Source of the DNA: Rhizobium sp. Q54
GTDB taxonomy: Bacteria > Pseudomonadota > Alphaproteobacteria > SMXS01
Length of the DNA stretch: 64,000 nucleotides
Assembly (NCBI GenBank): GCA_945907245.1
Contig: CAMDTB010000005.1
Location: 1 to 64,000 of the forward strand
Direction of reading: 5' to 3'
Below the pieces are notes generated by a model, which had not been told where the DNA came from, ran no database searches, and was given only the letters and a program-made list of their open reading frames with translations. This document shows, one piece after another, positions 2,183-51,389 of the stretch. Each line of letters begins with the position of its first letter. The first letter of the stretch is position 1. The translations under genes were made by a program, and so were the position numbers.

Positions 2183-3546
2183 TGCCCGTCCTGCCGAACT
2201 CGCTCGAGGCCCGCGACATCGCCAGCCTCGTCCACCCGTACACCAACCTGGCGAAACACGCCGAGAACGGGCCGCTGGTCATCGACCGGGGCGACGGCAT
2301 CCATGTCTGGGATACGGACGGCAAGCAGTACATCGAGGGCGTCGCCGGTCTGTGGTGCGCCTCGCTGGGGTATGGCGAGAAGGAACTGGTCAAGGCGGCC
2401 ACGGCGCAGATGGAGAAGCTGGCGTTCAGCCATCTGTTCCAGAGCCGCAGCCACGGCCCGGTGATCGAACTGGCCGAGAAGCTGAAATCGGTGGCGCCGT
2501 GCGATACCGCGCGGGTGTTCTTCGTCGGCGACGGATCGAGCGCCAACGACACTGCCATCAAGCTGATCTGGTACTACAACAACGCCGTCGGCCGGCCCGA
2601 GAAGAAGAAGATCATCGGCCGGCTGAAGGCCTATCACGGCGTCACCGTCGCCTCGGCCAGCGTCACCGGCCTGACCCATAACCACCTGGACTGGGATCTG
2701 CCGCTCAAAGGCTTCCTGCACACGGACTGCCCGCACCATTACCGCGAGTCGCTGCCCGGCGAGACCGAGGACCAGTTCGTCGACCGGATCATCGGCAACC
2801 TAGACCGGCTGATCAACAAGGTGGGGCCGGAGACCGTCGCCGCGTTCTTCGCCGAGCCGATCCAGGGCGCTGGCGGCCTGATCGTGCCGCCGCGGAACTA
2901 CTTCCCCAAGCTCCAGGCGGTGCTGAAGAAGTACGACATCCTGCTGGTGGGCGACGAGGTCATCACCGGTTTCCTGCGCACCGGCAATTACTGGGGCTGC
3001 CAGACCGTCGACATGCAGCCCGACATGGTGACCTGCGCCAAGGCGCTGTCGTCGGCCTATCTGCCGATCGGCGCGGTGACCATCCCGTCCTTCATGCACG
3101 ACGCCATAGTCGAGCAGTCGAAGAAGATCGGTACCTTCGGCCACGGCAACACCTATTCGGGCCATCCGGTCTGCGCCGCCGTCGCGCTTCGGACGCTGCA
3201 AATCTACGAGGAGCGCAACATGCTTGAGCATGTGCGCGGCCTGATCCCGCGCTTCCAGCAGCGGCTGGCGGCGCTCGCCAGCCATCCGCTGGTCGGCGAG
3301 GCACGCCTGGGCGGCGGCCTGATGGGCGGCGTCGAACTGGTCGCCGACAAGGCGACCAAGAAGCCGTTCGATCCCAAGCTGACCGTGGGCATGAAGGCGC
3401 TGCTCGCCTGCCAGGAACAGGGCCTGATGATCCGCGCCGTGGGCGATGTCGCCATCCTGTGCCCGCCGCTGATCATCACCGAGCCGCAGATCGACGAGAT
3501 GTTCGACCGTCTGAAGCGGGCGCTCGACGGGCTGCAGGTTCACTGA
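2182..3546 (+). CDS. Class III PLP-dependent aminotransferase
   Basis: ATG overlaps upstream stop (TAATG); LWCASLGYGEKELV, LLVGDEVITGFLRTG, TCAKALSSAYLPIGAV. Confidence 0.9.
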   Translation: MPVLPNSLEARDIASLVHPYTNLAKHAENGPLVIDRGDGIHVWDTDGKQYIEGVAGLWCASLGYGEKELVKAATAQMEKLAFSHLFQSRSHGPVIELAEKLKSVAPCDTARVFFVGDGSSANDTAIKLIWYYNNAVGRPEKKKIIGRLKAYHGVTVASASVTGLTHNHLDWDLPLKGFLHTDCPHHYRESLPGETEDQFVDRIIGNLDRLINKVGPETVAAFFAEPIQGAGGLIVPPRNYFPKLQAVLKKYDILLVGDEVITGFLRTGNYWGCQTVDMQPDMVTCAKALSSAYLPIGAVTIPSFMHDAIVEQSKKIGTFGHGNTYSGHPVCAAVALRTLQIYEERNMLEHVRGLIPRFQQRLAALASHPLVGEARLGGGLMGGVELVADKATKKPFDPKLTVGMKALLACQEQGLMIRAVGDVAILCPPLIITEPQIDEMFDRLKRALDGLQVH

Positions 3547-3658
3547 CACGCATCCCAGCCCTTCGTTGAATTTCCTTGTTATCGGGTCGGCCATGGCCAA
3601 CATAACGCGCCACGTTTGAGGTCATCTCGCGGGAGCGGACGCAAGTCCGGATGATGCT

Positions 3659-4678
3659 ATGAACACAAGTGTCCTCGACCGGCCCAAGGGCAACCTGAAG
3701 CCGCTGAACGTCACCGAGATCGATCCGTTCATCGATCTAAGGGCGGAGATCGACCGGCTGCGCACGGAGCGCAACGCCGTCATCCTGGCCCATTACTATC
3801 AAGAGGGCGAAATCCAGGACATCGCCGACTTCGTCGGGGATTCGCTGGATTTGTCGCGCAAGGCCGCCGCCACCGACGCCGACGTCATCGTGTTCTGCGG
3901 CGTGCGCTTCATGGCCGAGACGGCGAAGATCCTGAGCCCGCAGAAGACCGTGCTGCTGCCCGACATGAAGGCCGGCTGTTCGCTGGAGGATAGCTGCCCG
4001 CCCGACCAGTTCCGCAAGTTCCGCGAGCAGCATCCGGACCATGTCTCGCTGACCTACATCAACTGCTCGGCCGAGGTGAAGGCGCTGTCCGACATCATCG
4101 TCACCTCGAGCAACGCCGAATACATCGTCGACCAGATTTCGAAGGACAAGCCGATCCTGTTCGCGCCGGACCGGTTCCTCGGCGGCTACCTGGCCAAGAA
4201 GACCGGCCGCGACATGCTGCTGTGGCAGGGCTCGTGCATCGTCCACGAGCAGTTCTCGGAGCGCGAGCTGGTGAAGCTGATGGGCGAGCATCCGGGCGCG
4301 CCGGTGATCGCCCATCCGGAATGCCCGGGCCACATCCTGCAGCACGCCGACCATGTGGGCTCGACGTCCTCGATCCTGAACTATGCGCTGACCTCGGAGG
4401 CCGACACCTTCATCGTCGTCACCGAGCCGCATATCATGCACCAGATGCAGAAGAAGGCGCCGCACAAGACCTTCATCGGCGCGCCCAACGACGACGGCAA
4501 GTGCAACTGCAACAACTGCCCGTTCATGGCGCTGAACACCATGGAGAAGCTCTATCTGTGCCTCGCCAACATGACGCCGCAGATCGAAGTGCCTGAAGAC
4601 ATCCGCGTCAAGGCGCTGCGCTCGGTGCAGCGCATGCTCGACATGTCGCCGCCTGTGCAGCCCGCGAAAAATGGCTGA
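3659..4678 (+). CDS. nadA: Quinolinate synthase NadA
   Basis: [30 protein letters not shown]; cluster Cys motifs ([32 protein letters not shown]). Confidence 0.96.
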
Positions 4679-5516
4679 GCCGCTGCCGCTGTCGCGGGAG
4701 GCGCTCGACGACTTCATCACCCGGACGCTCGCCGAGGACGTCGGCACCGGTGACGTGACCGCCGAGGCGACCATTCCCGAAACCGCCCGCTTCCGGGCCC
4801 GGATCGCCGCGCGCGAGACGCTGGTCGTCGCCGGCCTGCCGGTCGCCATCGCCATCGTCAAGCGGCTGGCGCCCGACGCGGTGGTCGAGACGGTGCTGGG
4901 CGACGGCAAGACCGCCCGGCCCGGCGATGTGGTGGTGCGCATCGAAGGCCCGGCCCGCGCGCTGCTGACCGCCGAACGCTCGGCGCTCAATGTCCTGCAG
5001 CACCTGTCGGGCGTGGCGACGCTGACCCGCTCCTATGTGGACGTGATCGCCGGCACCAAGGCCAGGCTGCTCGACACGCGGAAAACCATCCCCGGCCTGC
5101 GGGTGCTGGAGAAATACGCCGTGAAGATGGGCGGCGGCACCAACCACCGCATGGGCCTCTACGACGCCGTGCTGATCAAGGACAACCACCTGGCCGTGGC
5201 GGGCGGCGTGACGGCGGCGGTGAAGGCCTGCCGCGCGCGCACCGGCCTGCGGGTACAGGTCGAGTGCGATACCCTCGACCAGGCGCACGAGGCCATCGCC
5301 GCCGGTGCCGACAGCCTGTTGCTCGACAACATGACTTTGGACCAGCTCCGCGAGGCCGTCGGCTTCTCGCCCATTCCGCTGGAAGCTTCGGGCGGCGTCA
5401 GTCTGCAGACCATCCGCGCCATCGCCGAGACCGGCGTCGACTACATCTCCGTCGGCCGTCTCACCCAGTCCGCGCCGGCCATCGACCTGGGCATGGATTT
5501 CGAGAGCCTGGGCTGA
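4671..5516 (+). CDS. nadC: Nicotinate-nucleotide pyrophosphorylase (carboxylating) NadC
   Basis: [53 protein letters not shown]; 8-bp overlap with nadA. Confidence 0.96.
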
Positions 5517-43306: not shown

Positions 43307-44209
43307 ATGTCGAACGCAGAACAAACCGGTCACCGGCGCCGATTTCTTGTGATTCTGAACCCGATCGCCGGCCGGCGTCGGCAGGTATTCTTGCGCAAGA
43401 CCATCGAGACTTTGGAGCGGACGGGATTCATCGTGACCATCGCGGCGACGACGCGGCGGGGCGATGCCGAAGCCATGGCCCGAAGCGCCGCGGCCGGCAG
43501 CGACCCGCCCGACGCCGTCGTCGCCGCGGGCGGCGACGGCACCATCAATGAGGTGGCGAACGGCCTCGCCGGCACCGGCATGACCATGGGCATCATCCCG
43601 ATGGGCACGGCCAACGTCCTGGCCAGCGAACTGGGGATCAGCACATGGTCCGGCCCGGTGGCCCGGACGCTGATCGAGGGTGTGGCGAAGCCGATCCACA
43701 TGGGCGACATCGACGGCCGCCGCTTCCTGATGATGGCCGGCGTCGGCTATGACGCGCGGGTGACGGCGCGGATCGATCCGGCCATCAAATACCGCTGGGG
43801 CAAGGCCGCCTATGGCCTCGCCGGCCTGCTGGAATGGCTGGAGCCGCCGGCCGCGCCGTTCGAGGTGATCGTCGACGGCCGCCCGTACGAGACCGCCTGG
43901 ATGATCGCCGCCAACGGCAAGCGCTATGCGGGCCGCTACATCGTCGCGCCCATGGCCCGGCTCGACGCGCCGTCGCTGACCGTGTGCCTGATGCCCGGCG
44001 CGGGCCGCGGCGACATGTTCCGCTACCTGTCCGCCATCGGCCGCGACCGGCTGGACCGGGAGAAGGACGTGCGCTTCATCGAGGCCCGCGAGGCGCTGGT
44101 GCCCGCCGCGCCGGGCGCGCTGATCGAAATCGACGGCGACTTCCACGGTCCCGGACCGGCACGCATCGCGCTGGCGCCGGAAACCCTGAACCTGATCCAG
44201 CCGGGATAA
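43307..44209 (+). CDS. Diacylglycerol kinase-family lipid kinase
   Basis: FLVILNPIAGRRRQ, VVAAGGDGTINEVANGLAGTGMTMGIIPMGTANVLA. Confidence 0.92.
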   Translation: MSNAEQTGHRRRFLVILNPIAGRRRQVFLRKTIETLERTGFIVTIAATTRRGDAEAMARSAAAGSDPPDAVVAAGGDGTINEVANGLAGTGMTMGIIPMGTANVLASELGISTWSGPVARTLIEGVAKPIHMGDIDGRRFLMMAGVGYDARVTARIDPAIKYRWGKAAYGLAGLLEWLEPPAAPFEVIVDGRPYETAWMIAANGKRYAGRYIVAPMARLDAPSLTVCLMPGAGRGDMFRYLSAIGRDRLDREKDVRFIEAREALVPAAPGALIEIDGDFHGPGPARIALAPETLNLIQPG

Positions 44210-44234
44210 TCAGCCTTCCGGCTTCGTCAGTGGG
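44135..44234. repeat. Left copy of duplicated junction (lipid-kinase 3' end plus remnant of the dehydrogenase 3' end)
   Basis: 44135-44209 = real kinase C-terminus; minus strand from 44234 reads HPLTKPEG-stop, like VPLTTPEG-stop of the gene at 44796. Confidence 0.8.
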
Positions 44235-44345
44235 TGCATTAAGGTGATGGATGCTGGGCTATTTAGTAAACTGGCACCGTAACCCTGTAACCGTCATCGT
44301 AACCCCCGGATTTGTCTATTGGTAACTTGCCGTAAGGCCATAAGC

Positions 44346-44648
44346 ATGAATAAAGCCAAAAAATCAATTAGTGCAGTAAAGTCTGCCTTTCACGCCTTGT
44401 TATCGCTGCTGCTTCTCTATGGTACGGTGTTGGTGTATCTCGAAATTCATGTTGGAATGAGCTATAGGGGGCTATACACATCAGAAATGAGAGTCTTGAG
44501 CGAGGGGCGTGCTTTGTTTTGGAGGGCATCATTGGTTATGCTAATGATATTTTTAATTGTTTTATTTGTAATTAGTGTAACGCGCGCATGGAGAATGGTC
44601 GTAGAAAAACGAAAGGGGAATCAGAATTTGCGCGGTAGTGAAGAGTAA
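44346..44648 (+). CDS. Orphan two-TM protein in AT-rich insertion
   Basis: 100 aa: SAFHALLSLLLLYGTVLVYLEIHVGM..SLVMLMIFLIVLFVISVTRAWRM; codon usage AT-rich unlike neighbours. Confidence 0.55.
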   Translation: MNKAKKSISAVKSAFHALLSLLLLYGTVLVYLEIHVGMSYRGLYTSEMRVLSEGRALFWRASLVMLMIFLIVLFVISVTRAWRMVVEKRKGNQNLRGSEE

Positions 44649-44702
44649 CTACAATTTCCAATTGCTTCAATTGCTTGGGTCAAGGTGACATGGCGTAATT
44701 GC

Positions 44703-44823
44703 GGCGGCTTCCACGGCCCCGGACCGGCCCGCATCGCGCCGGCCCCGGAAACCCTGAACCTGATCCAGCCGAGATAGTCGGCTTCAGCGAACCTCTCAGC
44801 CTTCCGGCGTGGTCAGCGGGACG
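44703..44823. repeat. Right copy of duplicated junction (kinase 3' end remnant plus real dehydrogenase 3' end)
   Basis: 44703-44777 encodes GGFHGPGPARIAPAPETLNLIQPR-stop, 68 of 75 nt identical to 44135-44209 by hand count. Confidence 0.85.
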
Positions 44824-46304
44824 CCGAGCAGGGCGCGGCGCTTCAGCCAGGCGCTGGCGCGGTAGCGCGGGTCGCCGTAGAAGGCGTACATGGCGTCGAG
44901 GATGCCCAGCACAGTGCTGGCGCCGAGCGCGTCGCCGAACTCCAGCGGCCCCTTCGGATAGCCCAGGCCCAGGCGCACGGCGGCGTTGATGTCGTCGGGC
45001 GTGGCGATGCGCTGCTGGGCGATCTCGCAGCCCACATTGACGATGCAGGCGATGACCCGCTGGGCGATGAAGCCCGGGCTGTCATGGATCACCGTCACCG
45101 CCTCGGCCGCTTTCGCCAGCAGTGCATGGGCGCCGTCGCGGATTTCCGGCCTGGTCACCGGCGTGGTCATCAGCGTGCGGTGGGTGGCGAGGCCGAACAG
45201 GGGATCGATGGCGACGGTGTTCGCCGGATCGATGCCCAGTTCGAGCGCCGTGGTGGTCGCATCCTTGCCGATCGGCGAGATGATGCTGACGACGCCGTCG
45301 CCCGGCTCGGACGCGACCGCGACGCCGTTGGCCTTGGCCAGCGCCGTGACGATCTCCTGCACCTCGGAGGTGGCGTTGGCGACCCAGACCGCCTTGGGCA
45401 GCGTGGTCGGCGCGGGATCGCGCGGGAAGGTGCTGCGCTTGCCGTCAGCATACTCGTAGAAGCCGCGGCCGGTCTTGCGGCCGTAGAGGCCGGCGGCGAC
45501 GCGCTGCGGCGCCAGCGGATTGGGCACGTAGCGCGGCTCGTTGAAGAACTGCTGCCAGATGCTGACCATCACCGGGAACGACACGTCGAGGCCGGTCAGG
45601 TCGAGCAGTTCGAAGCAGCCCATGCGGAAGCCGCAGGCGTCGCGCAGCACGTCGTCGATCACCGGATATTCGGCGACGCCTTCCGACAGGATGCGGAAGC
45701 CCTCGGTGTAGTAGGCGCGGCCGGCATGGTTGACCAGGAAGCCGGGCGTGTCCTTGGCGCCGACCGGGCGGTGGCCCATGGCGGTCGCCAGCGCGTTGAG
45801 GCGATCGACGGCCCAGTCCTCGGTCATCAGCGCCTTCACCACCTCGACCACCTTCATCAGCGGCACCGGGTTGAAGAAGTGGAAACCGGCGACCCTGCCC
45901 GGCTTCTTGCAGGCGGCGGCGATGGCGGTGACGCTGAGCGAGGAGGTGTTGGTGGTGAGGATGCAGTCGTCCGAAACGATGGCCTCCAGGTCGGAGAACA
46001 CCTGCTTCTTGACGTCGAGGTTTTCCAGGATCGCCTCGACCACCACGGTGCAGTCGGCGAAGCCGTCGAGGCTGTCGGCCAGCTTCAGGTTGGCCTTGGC
46101 GGCGGCAGCGGCGGCCTGATCCAGCTGGCCCTTCTCGGCGGCACGGTCCAGCATCTTGCCGATGAAGCCGGCGGCCTCTTCCATGGCGGCGCGGTTCATG
46201 TCGAACAGGCGCACCGGACAGCCGGCCTGGAGGGCGATCTGGACGATGCCGCGGCCCATGGCGCCGGCGCCGAGGACTCCGACGATTTCGTTCTGCTTGC
46301 TCAC
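44796..46304 (-). CDS. 3-hydroxyacyl-CoA dehydrogenase
   Basis: VGVLGAGAMGRGIVQIALQAGCPVRLFD; FHFFNPVPLMKVVEVV; GTG start. Confidence 0.93.
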   Translation of the reverse strand: MSKQNEIVGVLGAGAMGRGIVQIALQAGCPVRLFDMNRAAMEEAAGFIGKMLDRAAEKGQLDQAAAAAAKANLKLADSLDGFADCTVVVEAILENLDVKKQVFSDLEAIVSDDCILTTNTSSLSVTAIAAACKKPGRVAGFHFFNPVPLMKVVEVVKALMTEDWAVDRLNALATAMGHRPVGAKDTPGFLVNHAGRAYYTEGFRILSEGVAEYPVIDDVLRDACGFRMGCFELLDLTGLDVSFPVMVSIWQQFFNEPRYVPNPLAPQRVAAGLYGRKTGRGFYEYADGKRSTFPRDPAPTTLPKAVWVANATSEVQEIVTALAKANGVAVASEPGDGVVSIISPIGKDATTTALELGIDPANTVAIDPLFGLATHRTLMTTPVTRPEIRDGAHALLAKAAEAVTVIHDSPGFIAQRVIACIVNVGCEIAQQRIATPDDINAAVRLGLGYPKGPLEFGDALGASTVLGILDAMYAFYGDPRYRASAWLKRRALLGVPLTTPEG

Positions 46305-46438
46305 GAGTTCCCCCGTTCTTGACTGCTCGGTAAGGTCGCGCGGTTCATAGCACAGCCCGTTCGGCGGCACCAAGCACCGAGGCTGGGATTCGACCCCGGA
46401 TGTCCGTTATGCTGGTCGTCGGAAACGGGAGAACGATC

Positions 46439-49863: not shown

Positions 49864-50625
49864 TTAGAGACCTCCGGTGACCGGCCAGATCTGGCCGGTG
49901 ATCCATCCCGACGCGGGTGCGCTGAGGTAGACGACCGCCGCGCCGATATCCATGGGCGTGCCGAACCGGCCCGCCGGTATCTTCGCCTTCTCCAGCAGGT
50001 CCGGCAGGCCGGATTCGTCGATGCCGAGGGCGTTCATCACCACCTCGGTGGGAATCCACGCCGGCTCGATGGCGTTGACCCGCACCCTCGGCGCCAGTTC
50101 GCGGGCGAAGGTCTCGGTCAGGCTGTTCACGGCGGCCTTGGCCGCGCCGTAATGGCCGCTTCCCGGCACCGGGCCGCGCGCCGCCCGCGACGAGATGTTG
50201 ATGACCGCGCCGCCATCCGCCATCCGCTTAACCGCCGCGACCGTGCCTGCCCAGACCGCGGTGAGGTTGGTGTCCATGCAGTGCTGCCAGGAATCGGGCG
50301 ATGCCCCGGTCAGCGGACCCATATAGGTCGAGCCGCCCGCGTTGTTCACCCATATCGAGAGCTTGCCGAAATTGTCGATCGCGGCCTGGGCCAGCGCGTC
50401 GAGCGACTGGGAATTGGTGACGTCGGTGGGCATGGCGATCGCCTTGCCGCCCTTGGCGACGATGTCCGCGGCCACCTTCTCGACGTCGTCCTTGCGCCGG
50501 GCGGCGAGCACGACCGACGCGCCCGCTTCCGACAGCGCGTGGGCGATGCCCTCGCCGATGCCGCGGCCGCCGCCGGTGACAACCGCCACCTGGCCGTCGA
50601 GCCGGTACTGATCGAGGATGCCCAT
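49864..50625 (-). CDS. SDR family oxidoreductase (tandem copy B)
   Basis: MGILDQYRLDGQVAVVTGGGRGIGEGIAHALSEAGASVV..GSGHYGAAKAAVNSLTETFARELAP. Confidence 0.93.
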   Translation of the reverse strand: MGILDQYRLDGQVAVVTGGGRGIGEGIAHALSEAGASVVLAARRKDDVEKVAADIVAKGGKAIAMPTDVTNSQSLDALAQAAIDNFGKLSIWVNNAGGSTYMGPLTGASPDSWQHCMDTNLTAVWAGTVAAVKRMADGGAVINISSRAARGPVPGSGHYGAAKAAVNSLTETFARELAPRVRVNAIEPAWIPTEVVMNALGIDESGLPDLLEKAKIPAGRFGTPMDIGAAVVYLSAPASGWITGQIWPVTGGL

Positions 50626-51389
50626 CAGTGGCCTCCGGTGACCGGAAGCATCTGCCCGGTCACCCAGCCCGACGCCGGCGAGCACAGATAGACCACGGCG
50701 GCGCCGATATCCTGCGGCTTGCCGAAGGTACCCATGGGAATGGCGAGCTGCTTGGCCAGCGCCGGCAGGCCGCTCTCGTCGGTGACGCCCAGCGCCGCCA
50801 TCATCACCTCGGTCGGGATGTAGCCCGGCATGATGGCGTTGACCCGGATGGCGGGCGCCAGCTCGCGGGCGAAGGTTTCGGTCAGGCTGTTCACGGCGGC
50901 CTTGGCCGCGCCATAGTGACCGCTGCCCGGAATCGGGCCGCGCGCCACCAGCGACGAGATGTTGACGATGGAGCCGCCCTCGGTCATCCGCTTCACCGCG
51001 GCCAGGGTCGCCGCCCATACGGCAGTGATGTTGAGGTCGATGCAGTCCTGCCAGTCTTTCGCCGACAGCTCGGTCAGCGGCCCCATGGCGCGCGAGCCGC
51101 CGGCGTTGTTCACCAGGATGGTCAGCTTGCCGAACGTGTCGACGGCGGCCTGCGCCAGCGCCTCGAGCGCCTGCGAATTGGTGACGTCGGTCGGGACGGC
51201 CAGCGCCTTGCCGCCCTTGGCGTTGATGTCGGCGGCCACCTTGTCGACTTCCGCGGCGCGCCGCGCCGCCACGACGACCGCCGCGCCTGCGTCCGACAGC
51301 GCGTGGGCGATGCCCTCGCCCAAGCCGCGTCCGCCGCCGGTGACGACGGCAACCTGCCCATCCAGCCGATACTGGTCCAGAACTCCCAT
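50625..51389 (-). CDS. SDR family oxidoreductase (tandem copy A)
   Basis: MGVLDQYRLDGQVAVVTGGGRGLGEGIAHALSDAGAAVV..GSGHYGAAKAAVNSLTETFARELAP; TGATG coupling to copy B. Confidence 0.93.
   Translation of the reverse strand: MGVLDQYRLDGQVAVVTGGGRGLGEGIAHALSDAGAAVVVAARRAAEVDKVAADINAKGGKALAVPTDVTNSQALEALAQAAVDTFGKLTILVNNAGGSRAMGPLTELSAKDWQDCIDLNITAVWAATLAAVKRMTEGGSIVNISSLVARGPIPGSGHYGAAKAAVNSLTETFARELAPAIRVNAIMPGYIPTEVMMAALGVTDESGLPALAKQLAIPMGTFGKPQDIGAAVVYLCSPASGWVTGQMLPVTGGH

Follow-up and report, generated by a model that had tools for sequence, protein, structure and literature searches.

The window analysed here is a 64-kb stretch of DNA, and in it a diacylglycerol/lipid kinase gene and a 3-hydroxyacyl-CoA dehydrogenase gene converge (Table 1). 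The original prediction had placed the kinase end at 44209 and the dehydrogenase end at 44796, and the ORF calls bore out both; the remnant HPLTKPEG-stop that it had seen on the minus strand past 44209 reads as claimed. Alignment confirmed that the junction of the two genes is present twice in direct orientation around AT-rich DNA: 44134-44214 and 44702-44782 were 90.1% identical over 81 nt, and a second segment (44210-44234 and 44796-44820) was 88% identical over 25 nt. The count of 7 differences in 75 positions was correct for the kinase half. An 18-bp indel in the intergenic spacer makes up the length difference between the two junction copies (101 vs 119 bp).

Table 1 Features of the duplicated kinase/dehydrogenase junction and of the block between its copies
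Feature	Position	Strand	Evidence
Diacylglycerol/lipid kinase gene, intact	43307..44209	+	ORF; Pfam DAGK_cat 2.8e-27, YegS_C 2.8e-16; 3' end inside junction copy 1
Junction copy 1, 101 bp: live kinase end and dead 25-bp dehydrogenase end	44134..44234	.	Direct repeats D1, D4; dead dehydrogenase half carries derived states
Inverted REP half ATTAAGGTGA, 3 bp inside left insert edge	44238..44247	-	Exact 10-bp match to REP variant ATTAAGGTGA; best reverse-orientation match in block, shuffle p 0.007
REP repeat TATTTAGTAAACTGGCACCGTAACC	44260..44284	+	24/25 identical to repeat 3' of RAYT gene in G004 (L198); motif AGTNNACTGTCACCGNAA with one mismatch
Outer tandem repeats GTAACCCTGTAACCGTCATCGTAACC	44279..44304	+	Repeat type also beside G005 RAYT gene
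Cargo ORF, 100 aa from ATG (109 aa from TTG 44319)	44346..44645	+	Two predicted membrane helices (hydropathy); no known family
Degenerate REP, reverse orientation, GGTGACATGGCGTAATT, right insert edge	44684..44700	-	Second-best reverse-orientation match in block, shuffle p 0.04
Junction copy 2, 119 bp: dead kinase end and live dehydrogenase end	44702..44820	.	Direct repeats D1, D4; kinase half: 4/5 differences derived here, fifth unpolarised
3-Hydroxyacyl-CoA dehydrogenase gene, intact	44796..46373	-	ORF; Pfam 3HCDH_N 5.7e-56, 3HCDH 1.6e-44; 3' end inside junction copy 2

The 467-bp block between the junction copies (44235-44701) had a GC content of about 42% (37-47%) versus about 70% in the flanks, so the predicted AT-richness held, and a search of the genome found the block only once. 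Direct repeats were then defined by a fixed criterion (at least 60 bp, at least 82% identity, spacing up to 1.5 kb). The window yielded only the junction duplication, and 800 kb sampled elsewhere in the same genome (G000) and in its sister genome yielded none, so the junction repeat is not a chance repeat. Elsewhere in the window (49871-51389), two adjacent 758-bp copies with 77% identity are probably tandem paralogous genes.

The site was compared in relatives, with the sister genome G004 left out because the kinase locus is missing from its assembly. One junction copy and no block were found in G001, G002, G003, G005 and G006 of the same genus and in G007 of the same family; relatives with both copies and no block, which the original prediction had named as evidence against itself, were not seen. 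The two copies had five differences over the final 70 bp of kinase coding sequence, four derived in copy 2 and one unpolarised, and in the dehydrogenase half both differences that relatives could polarise were derived in copy 1. All six polarisable differences were thus derived in the dead halves and none in the live halves, which has a chance of 1 in 64 if either copy is equally likely to change, and two of them hit genus-conserved residues (D to G and L to P). This distribution points to decay after the duplication, so a diverged donor is not needed. Divergence at 4-fold sites from G001, G003 and G005 was 0.11-0.21 pairwise, so the copy divergence of about 10% matches that age, and these sequence distances would agree with an insertion soon after the G001, G003 and G005 lineages split off. 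The original prediction had considered the copies too diverged for a fresh target duplication, which is right for a fresh one and is no objection to an old one that has decayed with age. In G001 (L003) and G003 (L005) another intergenic insert sits at this junction, about 150 bp long and of an inverted CCTTCTCCCC/GGGGAGAAGG type, which indicates that the junction tolerates insertions.

The original prediction had offered two origins, and an old element duplicating about 100 bp fits better than recombination with a diverged relative, to which we give a low probability. In such a recombination, the DNA that came in, either as a circle or as a fragment with homology at one end, would have brought its own junction allele and the block, and one crossover within the junction would place donor sequence in exactly both dead halves; the 18-bp spacer difference would also suit a donor, since spacer length varies among species. 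However, copy 2 looks like copy 1 with derived changes added, two of them at genus-conserved residues, which is unexpected in a working donor gene. The block or junction of such a donor was not found in any relative, plasmid, phage or viral contig searched, and a donor would leave the REPs at the block edges and the repeated flanks at other REP sites, both described below, unexplained.

The original prediction had called the block foreign-looking and had overlooked the RAYT-associated REP repeats inside it, RAYTs being REP-associated tyrosine transposases, whose genes are flanked by inverted REPs in this genus. The left part of the block reads ATTAAGGTGATGGATGCTGGGCTATTTAGTAAACTGGCACCGTAACCCTGTAACCGTCATCGTAACC, and a search with the GTAACC repeat led to a RAYT gene in G005. 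When the block was scanned for REPs in reverse orientation, its two extreme ends ranked first and second, the left match being good and the right one weak (p values in Table 1). The left REP pair (44238-44284) is degenerate and folded no better than shuffled sequences. For the cargo ORF, Pfam, PADLOC, NCBIfam, phages, plasmids and viral contigs yielded nothing convincing, and protein matches in 398 genomes had marginal scores only; no credible relative of the block DNA was found in 385 genomes of the class, and an Rfam search had no match. A weak DNA match to the block in G045 falls within an unrelated ORF and was discounted as a chance hit, and a viral scan with GTAACNNTGTAACCGT was set aside as too unspecific.

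The consensus motif of these REPs, AGTNNACTGTCACCGNAA, occurs in up to 35 copies per genome in the family, while the reversed control was almost without matches. It has no GT(A/G)G head of the classical REPs. RAYT genes with a Pfam Y1_Tnp (PF01797) score above the cut-off were found in G001 (four genes), G002, G004 and G005, and AGTNNACTGTCACCGNAA flanks RAYT genes in inverted orientation, on both sides in all four genomes. Against the NCBIfam model REP_Tyr_transpos, the G005 and G004 proteins had E values of 6e-20 and 2e-19, with scores slightly below the curated cut-off. A REPIN of the AGTNNACTGTCACCGNAA type from G001 folds with a z score of -8.9. The window's own genome had no PF01797 match in an assembly that is about 98% complete; REP copies can outlive their cognate RAYT (PMC3686654). 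One of the four G001 RAYTs (L197, G001:C1) is of a second type with a different flanking repeat, GGGGACACAATACC. At L275 (G006:C75, 1440-1916), in a unit running from REP(-) to REP(+), what looks by eye like a transposase fragment of another family replaces the RAYT gene.

AT-rich DNA between facing REPs was also found at other sites. The REP sites of the family contained 19 REP(+)-cargo-REP(-) segments of 225-1574 bp, most with a single small ORF, and every one of them was lower in GC than its flanks (mean 0.50 vs 0.65). Ten cargo ORFs were run against Pfam, nine without a match and the tenth a cytochrome b561. The facing-REP pattern is partly geometric because the gap between any two adjacent REPINs has this orientation, but the AT-richness is not explained in this way. 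The window's genome itself has a second REP-bounded AT-rich insert at L242 (G000:C32:20500-24200), positions 1206-1830, between two genes which we take, from reading their translations, to be gdhB and purH. This cassette is present in G004 and missing from G001, G002, G003 and G005, and its 55-aa ORF differs between the two carriers by four synonymous and two amino-acid changes, a small hint from sequence that the gene may have been kept. A one-ORF cargo between directly repeated REPINs, a composite-like arrangement, was seen at L279 (G005:C4, 2579-3280; REPINs 98% identical) and L268 (G004:C34, 1959-2722; 93%).

The fixed direct-repeat criterion was also applied to the REP loci (319 kb), which gave 15 matches, compared with none in the rest of the window or in the 800 kb elsewhere. 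Among these matches, several represent copied REPINs or parts of RAYTs, and a 77-bp repeat at L277 was excluded because it resembles a common intergenic palindrome. Four are host flanks of 79-173 bp that end within 8 bp of a REP, one in the window's genome and three in G001, and the genes concerned are unrelated between loci. At G001:C36 a 95-bp REPIN lies between 79-bp copies of a divergent-gene spacer (92.5%), at G001:C12 a unit made up of 141 bp and a REP forms a head-to-tail repeat (98.8%), and at G001:C14 a unit made up of 127 bp and a REP stands on either side of a 275-bp piece (98.6%). At the window genome's own C32 (L242) the gdhB end plus REP is repeated (87%), whereas the G004 cassette has one copy of the gene end. 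Empty sites in relatives were compared for the window site and the gdhB site, and the three G001 cases were judged on internal structure. Some copies in G001, with its four RAYT genes, are nearly identical, while those in the window's genome, with none, are old; from these two genomes, past RAYT activity followed by loss of the enzyme in the window's genome fits. Most REP sites have no flank duplication, and no copied host flank was found beside the full RAYT units of G001, G002, G004 and G005, so duplication is at most an occasional outcome. The link between REPs and duplications is an association, and REP sites sit in unsettled regions.

Another process can yield similar repeats, because at L302 (G001:C1) a 163-bp gene-end duplication (3433-3595 and 4530-4692, 98.8%) surrounds an insert of about 930 bp with no REP of the studied type nearby; the insert protein resembles, by eye, aminoglycoside N3-acetyltransferases. 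This REP-free case would suit the capture of stray DNA at a long-staggered double-strand break, with about 100 bp of fill-in and end joining, the REPs being merely part of the captured fragment. Long staggered breaks generally give such an anatomy. However, the duplication edges abut REPs at several sites, and a Ku gene was found in G002 and G005 but not in the window's genome, G001 or G003, so end joining is not supported in the window's genome, and we regard break capture as improbable.

From the empty sites, the left-edge REP, the host flanks copied at further REP sites and the direction in which the junction copies decayed, we conclude that the block is probably a REP-bounded cassette that entered long ago and has since decayed. 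AT-rich DNA carrying a single small ORF for a predicted membrane protein between RAYT-type REPs would have inserted into the 3' junction of the convergent genes and duplicated about 100 bp of host sequence, with both genes keeping intact ends, and the redundant half-copies would then have decayed by ordinary mutation. Had nothing been duplicated, the insertion would have disrupted one of the genes, so survivors at this site must be duplication-bearing. We infer that a RAYT, a single-strand HUH nuclease acting in trans and absent from the window's own assembly, started the event. By the likeliest route, either repair synthesis primed by a nick at or near a REP would have copied about 80-170 bp of flank before the new strand rejoined upstream, or both strands would have been nicked at offset positions and filled in; this nick-primed or offset-nick family of mechanisms, taken as a whole, seems favoured. 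In the published view, RAYT cleavage of single-stranded DNA at REPs leaves a free 3' end, from which replication may be primed or which may serve strand transfer (PMC8266576). Flank copying would then be natural, since synthesis starting from a nick at the REP edge would cover the 80-170 bp beside it. Against the cassette reading stand the RAYT-free assembly, the degenerate right REP, the left pair that folds no better than shuffled sequence, the full RAYT units and many REP sites without flank duplications, the REP-free repeat at L302 and the reports on IS200/IS605 relatives and RAYTs considered below.

We give very little weight to a remnant of an integrative element with a tyrosine or serine recombinase, in which the junction copies would be attL and attR and the integrase would have been lost. 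Integrative elements often target the 3' ends of genes, which they restore with a copy of their own. However, the 467 bp contain no integrase trace, only one small ORF without a family match, and no phage, plasmid or viral contig searched was found to carry the junction as an att site. The edges of the block are marked by REPs, and the REP-adjacent duplications elsewhere involve unrelated genes. An assembly or binning artefact joining two strains is highly unlikely too: all data are assemblies and those related genomes that were identified are metagenome bins, so strains may be mixed, but compared with every relative the dead halves show decay, the edge REPs are native to the genus and like structures occur in other assemblies.

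The REP-bounded cassette resembles REPINs and REP elements mobilised by RAYT (TnpA_REP) in its inverted repeats, which are common to the flanks of Y1 transposase genes and have many dispersed copies, and in its form of a non-autonomous insert with paired REPs. It differs from them in the repeat without the classical head, in the single-ORF AT-rich DNA between facing REPs and in the host flank duplicated around the insert. Integron gene cassettes, too, are small insertions that carry a single short ORF between imperfect palindromes. This is a likeness of form only, because the frames at the window site are RAYT-type REPs, no array or attI platform was seen and flank duplications are no cassette feature. 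In Pseudomonas fluorescens SBW25, tandem REPIN clusters are repeated together with their flanks (PMC3116915, Fig. S7). G001:C12 and the window genome's own C32 are similar in that a unit of flank and REPIN is repeated, but the SBW25 clusters are whole-unit arrays, whereas the window site and G001:C36 have the copied flank on both sides of one insert. IS200/IS605 elements have related single-strand HUH transposases and palindromic ends but reportedly produce no larger target duplications (PMC2817692), unlike the 101/119-bp duplication at the window site.

REPs and RAYTs are already known, but a cassette form and host flanks duplicated over such lengths seem to be new; in the open-access papers searched, RAYT papers included, no long duplications were reported around single REP inserts. 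The route of REP spread is stated to be unsolved (PMC8266576, PMC3116915), and long host-flank duplications at REP sites would be a physical trace of the joining step that can be counted in any genome set. Such long duplications suggest repair synthesis or offset nicks rather than plain single-stranded cut-and-paste. More tentatively, and with rather less than even confidence, we suggest that RAYT-type REPs in this alphaproteobacterial genus may move replicatively, copy 80-170 bp of flank and carry single AT-rich orphan genes between facing REPs, and so may act as a gene-cassette system that spares its neighbours. If it is true that REPs frame single orphan genes, they would be an entry route for small foreign genes that leaves the neighbouring genes unbroken.
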